Shown here in pieces: positions 127 to 7,264 of a stretch of 7,454 nucleotides of DNA. A program made the position numbers and the translations under genes. Source of the stretch: Nitrospirota bacterium (GTDB lineage: Bacteria > Nitrospirota > Nitrospiria > Nitrospirales > UBA8639); contig CP070628.1 in assembly GCA_020355985.1 (NCBI GenBank), forward strand, positions 945,808-953,261, read 5' to 3'. The notes under the pieces are model-generated. The model ran no database searches. It was not told the DNA's origin and worked only from the letters and a program-made list of their open reading frames with translations. Each line of letters opens with the position of its first letter. Positions within the stretch are counted from its first letter, which is position 1.

Positions 127-198
127 ATGGACCCCATTTTTGACTTAGCGATGATTGCGGTAGTAGCCATAATGGTCGCTTTTAATATTTACGGATAA
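127..198 (+). CDS. Small single-helix membrane protein (23 aa), unknown function
   Basis: A 23-codon ORF runs from ATG at 127 to TAA at 196-198. The product starts MDPIFDLAMIAV and ends FNIYG. After a short acidic N-terminus (D2, D6), residues 7-20 or so are almost entirely hydrophobic (Ile, Val, Ala, Met, Leu, Phe), so one transmembrane helix is expected, with no lysine or arginine anywhere in the peptide. AAGGAG at ideal spacing supports translation. I recognise no family. By size and composition it resembles the tiny accessory subunits of membrane complexes (the CydX, KdpF or CcoQ class), but there is no specific sequence match and no partner gene beside it. It stands alone, 519 bases before the SulP gene and on the same strand; anything upstream is outside the window. 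That it is real is fairly likely; its role is unknown. Confidence 0.55.
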   Translation: MDPIFDLAMIAVVAIMVAFNIYG

Positions 199-717: not shown

Positions 718-2343
718 ATGACAGAAATTCCAAAAGGGCAAATTTCCGATTTCCCTAAAAACTGGCACGCAGACATACTGTCTGGCTTTTTGGTGTTTTT
801 GATTGCTCTCCCTTTGTGCCTGGGAATTTCATTGGCCTGCGGCTATCCTGCTATTTCCGGCATTTTTACAGCAATTATTGGCGGAATGCTGGCCACATTT
901 TTCAGTAACTCCGAACTCACCATCAAAGGACCTGCGGCTGGACTCATTGTGATTGCCATCGGCTGCGTCACCGAGTTTGGGTTTACCGGAGGGGAAGATC
1001 CAGCCTTAGATCTTCAGGCATATCGTCTTGCACTGGGTGTTGGAGTTGTCGCGGGAGTCATCCAGATTTTCTTAGGAGTGTTCCGAGCTGGGATCTTAGG
1101 AGAGTTCTTCCCCAATTCAGCGATCCATGGCTTACTGACTGCGATTGGCGTCATCATTATGGCTAAGCAGTTTCCCATTGCCCTCGGAGTCAGACCGGAT
1201 GGCAAGCCGCTAGAGCTCATTGCCAAGATCCCTCAGTTTGTGATGGAGATGAATCCTCTCGTAGGTCTGATTGGAATTATTAGTCTCCTCATCATGTTTG
1301 GCTATTTATTTATTTCCAATCCCAAATTCAAAGTGGTTCCCGCCCCCATGGTCGTGTTGCTTGTCACCGTGCCGCTAGCGATGTATTTGAATCTCGGCCA
1401 AGAGCAGACGTATGCCTTCAATGGGCAGGAATATCCTCTGGGAGAGCGCTTTCTCGTGGCGGTGCCGGAGAACCTGTTTCATGCGATTACCTTTCCAGAT
1501 TTTTCCGGACTGTTGACTACCACAGGGTGGAAATATGTGATCATGTTTGCCCTGATTGGCAGTATTGAATCCTTATTGAGCGCCAAGGCTATCGATGGCA
1601 TAGATCCTTGGAAGCGAAAGACAGATCATGATCGGGATATGTTGGCTGTTGGAGTTGGAAATACGTTGGCCGCCTTTGTCGGTGGACTTCCCATGATTTC
1701 AGAAATTGTCCGCAGCAAGGCTAACATTGATAATGGCGCAAGAACTCGATTCGCTAATATGTTTCATGGATTGTTTTTGCTCTTGTTTGTTGCGCTCCTC
1801 CCTGGGTTAATCAATCAAATTCCTCTTGCTGCTCTCGGAGCGATGCTGGTTTTTACCGGATTCCGATTAGCTTCGCCGCAAGAATTCATCCGCATGTACC
1901 ACGTGGGGAAAGAACAATTTATAATTTTCGTGTCTACCATTATTGGAGTGTTGGGGACAGATTTGTTAATGGGCATTGCTATTGGGATCTTTGTCAATAT
2001 TGTGTTGCATCTCATAAATGGTGCTCCTATGCAATCGCTGTTTAAACCGCAAATTCAGGTAGAGCGGGATAACGATCGTGGGGTAATGGTGAAAGTGAAA
2101 GATTCAGCCATTTTCAGTACATGGATAGCGTTGAAGAAAACGCTAGATAGTCTTGCGAGTGAACCCTATGTGGTTTTGGATTTGTCAGGCACGTTTTTAG
2201 TGGATCACACGACGATGTCAAAACTTCATGAACTGCAAAAAGACTTTCAAGAAGGGAAATGTAATCTGGAGATAATTGGTTTAGACCACCATCAACCTTT
2301 ATCAAATCATCCAGAAGCAGGAAGAAAGAAGCCTAGGAAGTGA
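718..2343 (+). CDS. SulP/SLC26-family inorganic anion transporter with STAS domain (candidate bicarbonate transporter)
   Basis: This 541-aa inner-membrane protein is a SulP (SLC26) secondary transporter. Residues about 15-435 are strongly hydrophobic with some ten or more membrane spans. Family landmarks seen are the early GYPAISGIF segment (42-50), the substrate-site region NSELTIKGPAAGL (64-76) and the SIESLLSAKAIDGID signature (282-296). Residues about 455-525 form a cytoplasmic STAS domain, with the core strand VVLDLSGTFLVDHTTMSKL (485-503). The usual Asp-Ser of regulated STAS domains is D496-H-T-T here. SulP members move sulfate, bicarbonate or other anions, often with Na+ or H+. The neighbouring dabA and Mrp genes make bicarbonate the favoured substrate, as in BicA, but this is inference. 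ATG 718 is the first possible start because TAA at 691-693 is in frame upstream. No Shine-Dalgarno is visible before it. The C-terminal tail ends in a basic GRKKPRK. Confidence 0.9.
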   Translation: MTEIPKGQISDFPKNWHADILSGFLVFLIALPLCLGISLACGYPAISGIFTAIIGGMLATFFSNSELTIKGPAAGLIVIAIGCVTEFGFTGGEDPALDLQAYRLALGVGVVAGVIQIFLGVFRAGILGEFFPNSAIHGLLTAIGVIIMAKQFPIALGVRPDGKPLELIAKIPQFVMEMNPLVGLIGIISLLIMFGYLFISNPKFKVVPAPMVVLLVTVPLAMYLNLGQEQTYAFNGQEYPLGERFLVAVPENLFHAITFPDFSGLLTTTGWKYVIMFALIGSIESLLSAKAIDGIDPWKRKTDHDRDMLAVGVGNTLAAFVGGLPMISEIVRSKANIDNGARTRFANMFHGLFLLLFVALLPGLINQIPLAALGAMLVFTGFRLASPQEFIRMYHVGKEQFIIFVSTIIGVLGTDLLMGIAIGIFVNIVLHLINGAPMQSLFKPQIQVERDNDRGVMVKVKDSAIFSTWIALKKTLDSLASEPYVVLDLSGTFLVDHTTMSKLHELQKDFQEGKCNLEIIGLDHHQPLSNHPEAGRKKPRK

Positions 2344-2449
2344 CGAGATTTACAAAAGTCTAAGGACGGTTGTGCAGTTGTTTTTTTAGAAAAGGGTTTC
2401 GAATGTCGTGGAGATTATGTGAGAGTCAATTAATCCAAGAGGGGATCTC

Positions 2450-2833
2450 TTATGAAGCCAAGGGAAAATTTGCTTCGAGATCTTGGGCTAACGAGAATAC
2501 TATGATGCGTTCTCCGATGGTCACATCAATATCGGTAAACAACCCTGAAACCCTCGCTTCGGTAATCTGGCTAACTTGTGAACAGAGTTTTTCGCGACCT
2601 TGGGAAATCAGATTCTGACGCAAGGCTTTCACCATCTCAATTCCATCTTCACTCTTGGCCAACTGTCGTTCAGCTTGGGTGAGTACACCCTAAAGGCGAA
2701 CCAGAACCAGATCACGAAAGATGAAGGCTTTGACATCCATAGGGCCTCGCCCCATAAATTTCTGCTCGAATGTAATCACGGCATTTCGGATGGAAGCCTC
2801 AGCCTCGCCTTTTGTCGTTCGTCCATTTTTCAT
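2450..2833 (-). pseudogene. mpsC: MpsC-family (DUF2294) protein gene interrupted by one in-frame amber codon
   Basis: Read on the minus strand from ATG 2833 to TAA 2450-2452, this is a 128-codon frame interrupted only by TAG at 2692-2690 (codon 48). The first part begins MKNGRTTKGEAEASIRNAV and contains FMGRGPMDVKAF and DLVLVRL. After the stop it continues GVLTQAERQLAKSEDG, then LFTDIDVTIGERIIVFSL. Together these match the whole DUF2294 layout from memory: TKGEAEA N-terminus, GRGP, the R-L-x-G-V-L-T-x-A-E joint and the D-I-x-x-x-x-G-E-R-x-I-V-F end. The stop sits where relatives usually have lysine, so AAG to TAG is a one-base change. No frameshift or second stop is seen. Pfam names this family MpsC after the S. 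aureus mpsABC locus; its molecular role is poorly known. It is convergent with sulP and divergent from dabA, an MpsB homologue. It could be a fresh pseudogene, a read-through gene or a sequencing error. Confidence 0.8.
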
Positions 2834-2872
2834 GAAAACTTGTGAAAACGTAGAGGATGAATCAAACGCGAG

Positions 2873-2880
2873 ATTATAAA
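2873..2880. promoter_or_regulatory. Possible overlapping divergent -10 elements between mpsC and dabA
   Basis: The sequence ATTATAAA reads as TATAAA on the plus strand (2875-2880) and as an exact TATAAT on the minus strand (2878-2873). Starts about 7 bases downstream would give leaders of roughly 35 bases to the dabA ATG at 2924 and to the mpsC ATG at 2833. Neither direction has a good -35 box at 16-18 bases, so a regulator-dependent or weak bidirectional promoter is the most that can be proposed. Confidence 0.3.
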
Positions 2881-2923
2881 GTGTTCAATGGTAAGGAAAA
2901 AATTCTCAAGCACTGGGATCATA

Positions 2924-5900
2924 ATGTCTACTGAATCGACCACAAGCAAACAGAAGAACCTGACGTCGGAAGAGCGGCAACAGCTTCGGCAAGTCATTCA
3001 AGAGGCCAATGAACCCATTGCCCCATTCTGGCCTATGCGAACCATGGTTGCGCAAAACCCGATCCACGGATTGGAGTACTTACCCTTTGATCAGGCCGTG
3101 CGAAAAGGCAAAGATCTCCTGGGAGGCAATGGGTATCTGCCGAATGAAGAGTATCGTCTGTTTTATCGAGAGGGACGTATAACCACCGAAAACGTTAAGC
3201 GGGCGTTGGTCCGTATCGGCCCTCCTTCAAAATCGCAAGATCCAATAAAATTTGGGAACCTTCTTTTGTCTGCGCGCGATATATGGCAATGGCATTTAGT
3301 TGTTGGGTTTGAGGAGTTGGAGCCGGTTCTTTTGCAATGGGAACTGAGTGGGGGCGGAGCTATTCGGGAATTTCGTTCTGATCTACCCCAGGAATCAAAA
3401 CATCGGATTATTGAGCGAACGATCAGTGAATGCGAGAAGTGCAGAGATTGCCCGGAAGAGGCGTACCTGACAAATCTGTGGAAGGCCACATTATCGGCAT
3501 TGGGTTTAGATGATTCCGTTCCAGAAGCGAAGGCTTCTGAAGACCATGATCAAATACGACTCTCCGGCGAAGCTGGAGAAAGACTTCAGGTGAATATTGA
3601 TTTGCCAGCTCAACGAACGATCTGTGATTGGGTCGAAAGCTTGAGCGGTGTTTCCTTAGTCGAGCAAATCAATAACCAAATGATTAAATGGATTGCAGCC
3701 TTTGTTGACGAAGGGTTGGCCGGGTGGGAAATGCCCCTCAGGAACAAAGGATTTTTCAGGGCTTGGAAGGACCTGGCGCAATGGGATCGATCTGGGAATC
3801 TCTTGGGAATTCATGATTTTCGCCAAAAAATTCAAGAATTATCTGATGAGCCTGAAGTAACCATCGTCTGGTGTTTAGATCGTCTCGGTATCCCTCAATC
3901 CCAGTGGAAATCGTATCTTTCAAGAGAATTATCCCAATTGCCTGGTTGGACCAGATACATTCGCTGGCTGGGAGAACATCCTCTGTATCATGCTCAACTG
4001 AAATACCCGATTGATACACAACAATATCTGGCTGTTCGGCTGTTTTATGAGGTAGAGCTGAGTCAGGTGGTCTGTCAACGAGAATGGGGCATTGATGGAA
4101 CCGTTTCCGCACTGAAATCATACTGGCAAGAACGCCGTGTGGAATACGAGAATGGCATGGGGCTAGGTGGTCATCCTGTAGATCCCACAACTCAGGCCAT
4201 ATGTCGAGACGCCTGGCGCTTGTTTCATCTTGCACAATGTTTAGAGGTGTCACCCATTGAGATGCACGACCTTTCAAGCACAGAGGCTCAGGCCTTGTTG
4301 AAGTGGCTTGATGCCTTTCCCTCTGACCTTCATGGTCCGGTTTGGCTCAAGGCTTTTGAAGATTCCTTTCAAGAAGACATTTTAGGAAAACTCTCAGCGC
4401 ATCGTGGGGTTGTTAAGGACTTAGACATTCGCCCGCAAGCACAATTGGTATTTTGTATCGATGTCCGATCGGAGTCGTTCCGACGCCATATCGAGGCGCA
4501 AGGGCCCTATGAAACGTTTGGGTTTGCGGGATTTTTTGGTATTCCGATCAGTCACCAGGCCTTTGATAGCGAACAGCGGTCCGATTTATGCCCGGTGTTG
4601 TTGACGCCCAATCATGCCGTGAGGGAAGTGCCTCGCTCTGGAGAAGAAGGCTCTTTACAGAAATATGCTTCTGGCACTCGATGGCGTCAACTCGGTCATC
4701 ATCTCTTTCACGATCTGAAGCACAATCCTATTGGGTCGATGATGGTGATTGATGTGTTGGGCTTCTTTTTTAGTTTGGGTTTAGTAGGCAAAACCTTACT
4801 CCAAAAAACATTTCGTAGGATCACCTCAACCATCGAGCGTTGGTTCACTCATAGGGTACCCACACAGATCTCGATTTCTGCCCCTTCGGATCCGCAAAAG
4901 CCAAAAGTCGGAGAAGTGAATGCAGAGGGGATTCCTAATGGCCTGGCACAGGGGTTTTCTTTGACGGAACGGGCGACCTTTATCGAAAACGGATTGCGGG
5001 CCATGGGGCTCACTCAAAATTATGCGCGGTTAGTCTGCCTCTGTGGCCACGGCAGTGAGACGGACAACAATCCCTATTATGGTGCGCTGGATTGTGGGGC
5101 TTGTGGGGGAGCACCGGGGGACGCGAATGCGCGAGTCTTCGCTACTATGGCGAACGCCCCAGAAGTTCGTCGCATTCTCAAAGAAAAAGGGTTGTCCATT
5201 CCCGATGACACGTGGTTTCTTCCAGGGAAACATAACACCACGACGGATCGCGTGAAATTTTACGATCTAGAAGAATTGCCTGAAAGTCATAAAGAAGATT
5301 TGCGTGTGTTGAAAAAAGATCTCGAAGAAGCTGGTGCGAATCAAGCCCTTGAGCGGTGTCATCGCATTCCACGTGCTCCGACTGAAATTTCTCCAAAACA
5401 GGCCCTTGCTCATGTCGACGAGCGCAGTTGCGATTGGGCGAACACCCGACCAGAATGGGGTTTAGCTGGCAATGCAGCATTTTTAATCGGACGACGAAGC
5501 CTCACGAAAGGTCTGGATTTAGGCGGGCGGGTGTTCTTACATTCGTACGACCCCATTGCTGACCCTGCTGGTGGCATCCTTGAAAAAATTATGACGGCTC
5601 CATTGATTGTAGGAGAATGGATAAATACGGGATATTACTTTTCGGGAGCGGACCCGTGGAAGTATGGAAGTGGCAGTAAGGTATTTCACAACGTGGTAGG
5701 GGGCGTGGGAATGATGTTGGGAAGCCAAAGTGATTTGCAAATGGGATTTCCTTTACAGACGGTTAACGATGGTGATCGTCATTATCATGAGCCCATGCGG
5801 CTCCTTGCCATCATTGAACACACACCGAGTGTAATTTCGTCGATCATTGAAAAACATGGAATCCTTCAGCAGTTGTTTCATAACCAGTGGCTCAATCTTG

Positions 5901-5977
5901 TGGCATTGGACCCTCATGCATTTGAGTTTCATCGCTATAACTCTGATGGGTTGTGGGAGGCTGTTTCTCATAACTGA
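2924..5977 (+). CDS. dabA: DabA/MpsB (DUF2309): inorganic carbon capture subunit, carbonic-anhydrase-like
   Basis: This 1017-aa DUF2309 protein is the zinc-binding, membrane-associated partner of a NuoL/MrpA-like subunit (DabB). The pair turns CO2 into bicarbonate inside the cell using an ion gradient. The zinc-site residues known from the Halothiobacillus protein (C351, D353, H524, C539) are all present, with numbering from ATG 2924: C511 and D513 in VFCIDVRSE, H709 in CGHGSE and C724 in DCGACGG. The C-to-D gap of 2 and the H-to-C gap of 15 match exactly. The N-terminal region before the site is about 160 residues longer, and the segment between the two halves about 25 longer. It begins with family motifs FWPMRTMVAQNPIHGLE. 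A hydrophobic stretch (MMVIDVLGFFFSLGLVG) precedes the second half. ATG 2924 is preferred because GGGA lies 5 bases upstream; ATG 2888, which adds 12 residues (MVRKKFSSTGII), has no binding site. No dabB adjoins it; Mrp-type subunits follow. Confidence 0.93.
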   Translation: MSTESTTSKQKNLTSEERQQLRQVIQEANEPIAPFWPMRTMVAQNPIHGLEYLPFDQAVRKGKDLLGGNGYLPNEEYRLFYREGRITTENVKRALVRIGPPSKSQDPIKFGNLLLSARDIWQWHLVVGFEELEPVLLQWELSGGGAIREFRSDLPQESKHRIIERTISECEKCRDCPEEAYLTNLWKATLSALGLDDSVPEAKASEDHDQIRLSGEAGERLQVNIDLPAQRTICDWVESLSGVSLVEQINNQMIKWIAAFVDEGLAGWEMPLRNKGFFRAWKDLAQWDRSGNLLGIHDFRQKIQELSDEPEVTIVWCLDRLGIPQSQWKSYLSRELSQLPGWTRYIRWLGEHPLYHAQLKYPIDTQQYLAVRLFYEVELSQVVCQREWGIDGTVSALKSYWQERRVEYENGMGLGGHPVDPTTQAICRDAWRLFHLAQCLEVSPIEMHDLSSTEAQALLKWLDAFPSDLHGPVWLKAFEDSFQEDILGKLSAHRGVVKDLDIRPQAQLVFCIDVRSESFRRHIEAQGPYETFGFAGFFGIPISHQAFDSEQRSDLCPVLLTPNHAVREVPRSGEEGSLQKYASGTRWRQLGHHLFHDLKHNPIGSMMVIDVLGFFFSLGLVGKTLLQKTFRRITSTIERWFTHRVPTQISISAPSDPQKPKVGEVNAEGIPNGLAQGFSLTERATFIENGLRAMGLTQNYARLVCLCGHGSETDNNPYYGALDCGACGGAPGDANARVFATMANAPEVRRILKEKGLSIPDDTWFLPGKHNTTTDRVKFYDLEELPESHKEDLRVLKKDLEEAGANQALERCHRIPRAPTEISPKQALAHVDERSCDWANTRPEWGLAGNAAFLIGRRSLTKGLDLGGRVFLHSYDPIADPAGGILEKIMTAPLIVGEWINTGYYFSGADPWKYGSGSKVFHNVVGGVGMMLGSQSDLQMGFPLQTVNDGDRHYHEPMRLLAIIEHTPSVISSIIEKHGILQQLFHNQWLNLVALDPHAFEFHRYNSDGLWEAVSHN

Positions 5978-6158: not shown

Positions 6159-6176
6159 ATGGTGCTACTTAGATGA
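6159..6176 (+). promoter_or_regulatory. Possible five-codon leader ORF coupled to mrpE
   Basis: ATG at 6159 has the purine-rich GGAGTAGGGGA (6143-6153) at good spacing and reads MVLLR before TGA at 6174-6176. That stop overlaps the mrpE start as ATGA, the same arrangement used between mrpE/mrpF and mrpG/DUF4040. The mrpE start itself has only a weak GGTG upstream. The good ribosome site may therefore serve this mini-ORF and deliver ribosomes to mrpE by coupling. Confidence 0.35.
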
Positions 6177-6700
6177 GAAAGAATGTTTTTCCTGCTGGAT
6201 CTCGTCCTAGGCCGATTTCATCACAATTCTTGATCTTAAAGGCCACAGCACTCTTTGTGTTATGGATCATGTTATCTGCCAGTTTTGATTGGATCCATCT
6301 TGGATTGGGATTAGTTCTTTCCTTCACGGTGGCATGGATTAACTCTGGCCATTCCCCCTTTGTTCCTAAGTTTCGATTGTGGGGCAACATCCTCCTGTAT
6401 CTTCCCTGGCTTTTTGTCAAAATCGTCAAAAGTGGTCTTCATCTATCAAAGCTCATTCTTCACCCTGCGCTTCCTATCAATCCCCGGTTAATCCATGTTG
6501 AGACGAAATTGGGTCATCATGCTGCCGTTGTGCTCCTTGGTAATTCCATTACCTTGACTCCCGGAACGATTACCGCTGAGGTTGATCGTAATGCACTCAC
6601 CATTCATGCCATGGATGAAGTTTCAGCGGACGATGTCACAAGCAAGCGGATCGAATCTAAAATTGCTGAAATGTTTAAGGATGAAGAGCCGGATTTATGA
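6173..6700 (+). CDS. mrpE: Mrp-type cation/proton antiporter subunit E (MnhE/MbhA-like)
   Basis: The 175-aa product is a membrane subunit of the MrpE/MnhE family. About three hydrophobic spans lie at residues 18-37, 41-57 and 70-88, followed by a soluble C-terminal domain. The hallmark LGNSITLTPGTITAEV is at 122-137, within the expected family length of about 160-175 aa. MrpE is a small accessory subunit of Mrp Na+/H+ antiporters and of the related membrane-bound hydrogenase modules, where it helps assemble or stabilise the complex. An in-frame TAG at 6170-6172 directly precedes the ATG, so the protein cannot start earlier. It is the first gene of a compact run; its stop codon overlaps the mrpF start. 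The C-terminus is charged (KDEEPDL). Confidence 0.93.
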   Translation: MRKNVFPAGSRPRPISSQFLILKATALFVLWIMLSASFDWIHLGLGLVLSFTVAWINSGHSPFVPKFRLWGNILLYLPWLFVKIVKSGLHLSKLILHPALPINPRLIHVETKLGHHAAVVLLGNSITLTPGTITAEVDRNALTIHAMDEVSADDVTSKRIESKIAEMFKDEEPDL

Positions 6701-6963
6701 AAATTTTTCTTCTTTGCGTTCTAGTGGCATTGGCTTTTCTTATTGGTGCGTATCTGTATCGTGTCCTTCAAGGACCCACGATATTTGATCGTGTGTTAGG
6801 CCTGGCTGGTATATCCACCAAGGCGATTATTTTGCTCATTGTCATTGGAGTCTTCTTTGAACGAGTCGACATGTTCGTCGATATCTCAACTGGCTATGCG
6901 TTACTGAATTTGGTGGGGGCGCTCGCTGTGGCAAAATATCTGGAACAAAAGGGGCTTCCGTAA
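6697..6963 (+). CDS. mrpF: Mrp-type cation/proton antiporter subunit F (MnhF/MbhB-like)
   Basis: The 88-aa integral membrane protein has three predicted helices (about 3-22, 40-56 and 62-82), the usual MrpF size and topology. The family signature GPTIFDRVLGL (26-36) is clear, with Asp31 in the conserved D-R pair and another conserved acidic position near Asp62 in the third helix. In Mrp complexes MrpF packs with MrpE and MrpG. Its ATG overlaps the mrpE stop as ATGA (6697-6700), implying translational coupling, and mrpG starts one base after its stop. No strong Shine-Dalgarno is seen, consistent with coupling. Confidence 0.93.
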   Translation: MKIFLLCVLVALAFLIGAYLYRVLQGPTIFDRVLGLAGISTKAIILLIVIGVFFERVDMFVDISTGYALLNLVGALAVAKYLEQKGLP

Positions 6964-6964
6964 C

Positions 6965-7264
6965 ATGGGATTAATTTCCATCATGTGTATTCTTGCAGGA
7001 TTATTTTTTCTGATTGTTGCGGCTATTGGAGTCATACGACTTCCCGATGTCTTTAGTCGTTCCCATGCGGTGTCGTTAACGGATTCGTTAGGAGCATTCC
7101 TAATGTTAGTCGGTATTGCGCTCCATGAAGGACTTAGCGGGAACGCGCTGAAAATCCTTGCCGTGTTGGCCTTACTCTATATCCAAAATCCAGTTATAGA
7201 GCATGCTACTATTCGTGCGGCTCTTCGGGCTGGACTCAAACCGTGGAAAAGAGAAACCCCATGA
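6965..7264 (+). CDS. mrpG: Mrp-type cation/proton antiporter subunit G (MnhG/MbhC-like)
   Basis: The 99-aa protein belongs to the PhaG/MnhG family. Three hydrophobic helices are predicted at about 4-23, 40-54 and 61-75. The conserved segment GVIRLPDVFSRSHAVSLTDS (22-41) is diagnostic, and the motif IQNPV (73-77) closes the last helix as in relatives. The C-terminal tail is basic (RAGLKPWKRETP). It is a small structural subunit of the antiporter or of an Mbh-like membrane module. It starts 1 base after mrpF, and its TGA overlaps the next gene's ATG (ATGA at 7261-7264). Confidence 0.93.
   Translation: MGLISIMCILAGLFFLIVAAIGVIRLPDVFSRSHAVSLTDSLGAFLMLVGIALHEGLSGNALKILAVLALLYIQNPVIEHATIRAALRAGLKPWKRETP

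Follow-up and report, generated by a model that had tools for sequence, protein, structure and literature searches.

The mpsC gene beside dabA in a Nitrospirota genome is very probably a recent nonsense pseudogene, and mpsC is broken in other ways in related genomes

In a Nitrospirota genome, the mpsC gene located next to dabA is interrupted by an in-frame TAG, and we regard it as very probably a recent nonsense pseudogene. It carries a disabling mutation, and the gene is intact in relatives. The analysed stretch of DNA, below called the window, has 7,454 nucleotides. In it, mpsC lies between the genes of SulP and DabA, antisense to both, and mnhEFG is found downstream of dabA. The features of the window are as follows.

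718..2343, plus strand: SulP-family anion transporter gene, intact, without internal stop, convergent with mpsC (PF00916, E 8.2e-57)
2450..2689, minus strand: 3' part of mpsC, 79 codons and the terminal stop, with the reading frame kept (PF10057, 63.0 bits, profile 43-110)
2690..2692, minus strand: in-frame TAG replacing the highly conserved lysine codon 48 (from translation and alignments)
2690..2833, minus strand: 5' part of mpsC, 47 codons and the TAG (PF10057, 36.1 bits, profile 1-41)
2888..5977, plus strand: dabA, intact, divergent from mpsC (PF10070, E 1.4e-265, profile 1-747); translation could also begin at an in-frame ATG at 2924
6173-6700, plus strand: mnhE, Mrp-type antiporter gene (Pfam; PF01899, PF04066 and PF03334 for mnhEFG)
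6697-6963, plus strand: mnhF, Mrp-type antiporter gene (same profiles)
6965-7264, plus strand: mnhG, Mrp-type antiporter gene (same profiles)

Translation of the minus strand at 2450-2860 gave 47 residues (MKNGR...VLVRL), the TAG at 2692-2690, 79 residues (GVLTQ...PLAS) and a stop at 2452-2450, all in a single frame. This bore out the preliminary description of the window, which had read 47 codons, a TAG and 79 codons in one frame and had assigned both halves to the DUF2294/MpsC family. That assignment was also correct. Taken alone, each half exceeds the 23-bit gathering cut-off of the PF10057 profile (MpsC, formerly DUF2294; 111 positions), and the halves match it in order, giving a whole-domain match above the gathering score. 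The TAG at codon 48 leaves the window with no intact frame for a full-length MpsC. Judged by its sequence, the window mpsC is a member of the MpsC family by descent and is not intact. For some PF10057 homologues, the source gives the name YbcI. In a homologue search, 903 proteins reached the threshold, and the best 120 of the 903 were examined. The 127 residues read through the stop align with the closest homologues of 127 aa without internal gaps. The eight closest homologues are 89–92% identical to the window, and the next is 83% identical. The likeness to the family extends to both halves, and the identity to intact homologues reaches 92%. Residue 7 of the window protein is an extra T, which is no lesion, because the eight closest homologues have the same T.

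The position of the stop is strongly conserved. Position 48 is K in 26 of 26 homologues in one alignment (A1) and in 46 of 46 in another (A2). Lesions were scored in the window and at 35 further loci, which comprise L030 and 34 family genomes without G040 and G047; the single exception to K at position 48 among these 35 is R in G042. On these alignments, the conservation and the gap-free match across the stop are far beyond chance. Codon 48 is AAA or AAG in 13 of the 15 rows with mpsC DNA; the two others are the window, with its TAG, and G012, which was masked at this codon owing to its own frameshift there. A single A-to-T change in the lysine codon AAG would produce the TAG. With the stop included, 3 of the 67 highly conserved MpsC positions are changed in the window. 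Among the best 120 of the 903 homologues, 7 show at least three such departures without known breakage. The model of the intact homologue P0001 (pLDDT 91.3) predicts one domain composed of a helix, a hairpin, two helices and a hairpin, with the elements H8-27, E33-39 and E42-48. According to this model, the TAG removes everything past the first helix and the first beta hairpin. Such a stop in a one-domain protein would abolish the function of MpsC.

A sequencing or assembly error, in which case mpsC would be intact with a sense codon at position 48, would have to affect only a single base. This is very unlikely, because the protein P0241, encoded on a different contig (14,675 bases), ends exactly at residue 47, like the N-terminal part in the window, and shares with it two uncommon substitutions, T21 and F39, which are absent from the eight closest homologues; the error would have to recur. 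P0241, which was seen as protein alone, is identical to the 47 window residues except for residue 25 (E25 in place of K25 in the window). The search for such products gave four proteins in all. P0242 is sister-like: it is 91% identical over the 47-residue query and is in another frame near codon 70, where the window's own shifted translation points to a frameshift. P0243 (50 aa, 600-base contig) was dropped as a lesion since it ends in LSLIHI, an apparent adapter translation, which we take to be translated transposase-adapter sequence. P0244 (71 aa, 1618-base contig) was also dropped, since the contig edge may explain its end.

The frame and most conserved residues are retained after the TAG. 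Complete retention of the frame is predicted by both very recent loss and read-through. Programmed read-through or recoding of the UAG (by a suppressor tRNA or as pyrrolysine) would give a full-length MpsC, and the replaced residue is lysine, the parent of pyrrolysine, which is a lysine derivative. However, the PylS cut-off was reached in none of the 48 family genomes (25 of the 48 had weaker matches), and in one of the 14 genomes of the control set, presumably Methanosarcina. TAG terminates 6 of the 42 neighbouring genes read in relatives, and the SulP, DabA and mnhEFG frames of the window have no in-frame TAG. No unusual RNA structure was found downstream of the TAG (z -0.84), and the mpsC lesions of relatives differ from this one in site and in kind. 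With no recoding signal found and the lesions of relatives located elsewhere, we consider read-through highly improbable. The same low probability applies to a split gene, in which the 47-residue piece would act together with a re-initiated C-terminal piece. Both halves are conserved, and past the TAG there is a 70-residue frame that starts with the TTG at 2662, but the TAG falls at the end of strand 2 within one compact predicted domain. Among the scored loci, two pieces occur only in G012, and there they are in different frames. Thus, the family identity and the recent one-base nonsense change proposed in the preliminary description stood, the latter with AAA or AAG in the 13 readable DNA relatives and with homologues that are intact and 89–92% identical. 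The assembly error, given the identical end of P0241 on another contig, and programmed read-through, which it had also offered, are disfavoured.

The recent nonsense pseudogene, which we prefer, belongs to a gene common in the GTDB family of G012 (48 genomes). An MpsC match was present in 36 of the 48 genomes, and a DabA match in 46. In 31 of these 36 genomes, no more than 5 kb separated the MpsC match from a DabA match, and in 25, no more than 1 kb. The window shows this typical linkage, with mpsC at 2453-2833 (minus strand) and the DabA gene starting from 2888 (plus strand). In this Nitrospirota family, the usual place of mpsC is near the DabA gene, often in back-to-back arrangement. The staphylococcal order is different: according to the available parts of PMC6689103 and PMC8552792, mpsC comes after mpsAB there, whereas the window mpsC is encoded divergently from dabA. 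The exceptions to the 5-kb linkage are G036, G024, G038, G040 and G004, where the mpsC copy is near a contig end. DabA without an MpsC match was found in 11 genomes (G009, G010, G016, G018, G021, G023, G026, G030, G031, G033, G046). Assembly gaps may explain some of them; in G046, dabA starts near the contig edge. In G009, 26 bases lie between the end of the SulP match and the start of the DabA match, and no trace of MpsC was found. The DabA closest to that of the window is 92% identical, and the next is 79% identical. The best long DNA match to window positions 2400-5977 among the 48 family genomes is 75% identical. The 38 loci found by DabA carried Nitrospirota-type and Nitrospinota-type labels and one Deltaproteobacteria label. 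The G036 genome (L170) has an open mpsC beside SulP and no DabA match at all. A reverse situation is seen in G015, G017 and G020 (L037): each has a second, partial dabA copy holding a TGA inside, and an open mpsC lies at most about 3.3 kb from a longer dabA.

It turned out that mpsC is also broken in five relatives. G011 (OFTM334) has a TAA at codon 78 and, with the stop included, 12 departures at the 67 conserved positions. In G012 (OFTM76), a frameshift lies near codon 47, and two frames are needed to read the gene. G008 (NPIRA04) has two frame changes and 25 departures, many of which appear to fall in the stretch between these changes. G004 (NPIRA01) has a TAA at codon 117, near the end, and 3 departures. 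In G005, the ATG is replaced by GCG, with 8 departures, and an upstream in-frame TTG remains. G004, having lost the tail alone, and G005, using the upstream TTG, could still make an MpsC protein. The number of departures alone is no proof of decay, because G028, G027, G039 and G014 show 6–12 departures without a lesion. We do not place the pseudogene reading of the window higher than very probable because K48 is not strictly invariant and the lesions of two of the five relatives may be mild. A second MpsC was not found in the five broken genomes, each of which has only its broken copy. The preliminary description had supposed either a second mpsC or a cell that has dispensed with MpsC; the relatives speak for the latter and not for a second copy. 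The recurrent loss of mpsC is beyond what could be seen from the window, on which that description was based.

We also placed the lesions on an RpoB tree, which included 29 of 30 genomes (G044 had no match). G011, G012, G013, G001 and G005 were grouped apart from G004, G008 and G009, and the six genomes with broken or absent mpsC fell into two separate clades. RpoB of G011 and G012 is 99.2% identical, and that of G004 and G008 is 99.4% identical; in both pairs, the mpsC lesions are different. The losses look independent on these sequences, or the different visible lesions may have come after an older, invisible inactivation. A Fisher test of lesion clustering was set aside, since the groups were picked post hoc and the 28 'intact' genomes included the unscored G040 and G047. 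In a sample of the phylum, 98 of 295 genomes had an MpsC match, and internal stops were listed only for G190 and G204. The TGA of G190 was not counted as a lesion, being outside aligned residues 12-120. G204 (L168, 2359-2505) contains an mpsC relict that ends at residue 62 and has three in-frame TAG codons, all at glutamine positions.

Selection was assessed by pairwise dN/dS using Nei-Gojobori counts. In the broken pairs G011-G012 and G004-G008, the dN/dS of mpsC was 0.449 and 0.774, respectively, when compared to 0.079 and 0.056 for SulP and 0.220 and 0.172 for DabA. In the intact pair G001-L030, the dN/dS of mpsC was 0.057. The nonsynonymous excess of mpsC over SulP had p 2.6e-5 in G011-G012 and p 1e-9 in G004-G008; over DabA, it was not significant in G011-G012 (p 0.062) and had p 0.00024 in G004-G008. 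The excess over SulP was absent in the pairs G001-L030 (p 0.38) and G003-G036 (p 1). We have thus shown relaxed selection on mpsC in the two broken pairs of relatives. Comparison of the window with G012 gave p 0.0089 over SulP and p 0.56 over DabA, and with G005 p 0.07 and p 0.99, both being weak tests. With so weak a test on its own branch, decay of the window copy is read from the stop. The window MpsC differs from its eight nearest homologues at 11–14 positions, stop included, and these differ among themselves at 2–10. Youth of the lesion would explain why there is little further damage. The variety of stops and frameshifts, the lost start and the missing gene in relatives, together with the raised dN/dS in two broken pairs, are the features of ordinary bacterial pseudogenes. 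There is no fundamental difference from them; what was lost is a conserved gene from the vicinity of DabA. In itself, the stop is nothing unusual, apparently a matter of repeated gene loss and not of a new reading of the genetic code.

The DabA of the window is full length and has the metal-site pattern C523-D525-R527-H721-C736 (C-x-D-x-R ... H-(14)-C). Its spacing matches that of the DabA2 zinc site, Cys351, Asp353, Arg355, His524 and Cys539, as given in the available part of PMC13144422. In contrast to the DAB/MpsAB complex, which consists of DabA (PF10070) and DabB, the context here is SulP and Mrp-type mnhEFG, MpsC is lost, and a scan of nine window frames showed no DabB (PF00361), the window ending inside the Mrp-type cluster. 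The five site letters of DabA are present in 14 of 15 rows; in G011, the contig ends before the last of them. In the five broken genomes and G009, the covered parts of SulP and DabA are free of internal stops; the sole stop in G009 is at aligned residue 7, ahead of the start. A contig end cuts dabA in G011 and G012, and dabA is spread over two contigs in G008. The contigs L028 and L029 both end inside dabA at residue 733, which is probably an assembly break; the remainder in G012 is on L038.

Loss of MpsC appears to be tolerated: the gene would have been disabled or removed on several occasions, with DabA and the SulP next to it remaining free of lesions. We infer that carbon uptake by DabA continues in the absence of MpsC. 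According to the available part of PMC6689103, growth of S. aureus was normal after mpsC deletion, and mpsAB was sufficient to complement an E. coli mutant lacking carbonic anhydrase. It is possible that MpsC is an accessory or conditional factor, which would perhaps explain why its loss is tolerated. MpsC is conserved and linked to DabA in 31 of 36 genomes, so it matters somewhere. We think it rather unlikely that MpsC restrains or conditionally regulates the DabA pump and that its loss was repeatedly favoured upon a change of habitat or a swap of dabA. If this were true, the mosaic-looking dabA genes would be a cause of mpsC loss, and MpsC would receive its first testable role. Genomes that repeatedly lost mpsC and kept DabA are natural knockouts for the role of MpsC in inorganic carbon uptake. 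Among the open-licence papers listed by our text searches, we found neither a description of mpsC decay nor a described function for MpsC. The available part of PMC8115632 describes SulP (BicA-like) transporters in Nitrospira marina and does not name DabA or MpsC in that account. That of PMC10880623 does not mention MpsC/PF10057.

The dabA gene is mosaic-looking, as noted for the window, L030 and L001. Window residues of about 81-480 are closest to G013, G001 and G012, and residues of about 561-880 are closest to L030, G014 and G002. G001 and L030 are 96% identical in SulP and only 68% in DabA, and this contrast suggests swapping of dabA alleles beside mpsC. We do not claim that the swapping is tied to mpsC loss; L030 has a swapped-looking dabA, yet its mpsC is open. 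Upstream of SulP, at window positions 127-198 of the plus strand, there is a hydrophobic ORF of 23 residues, MDPIFDLAMIAVVAIMVAFNIYG, preceded by AAGGAG. This ORF is conserved (57–91%) in 8 loci.
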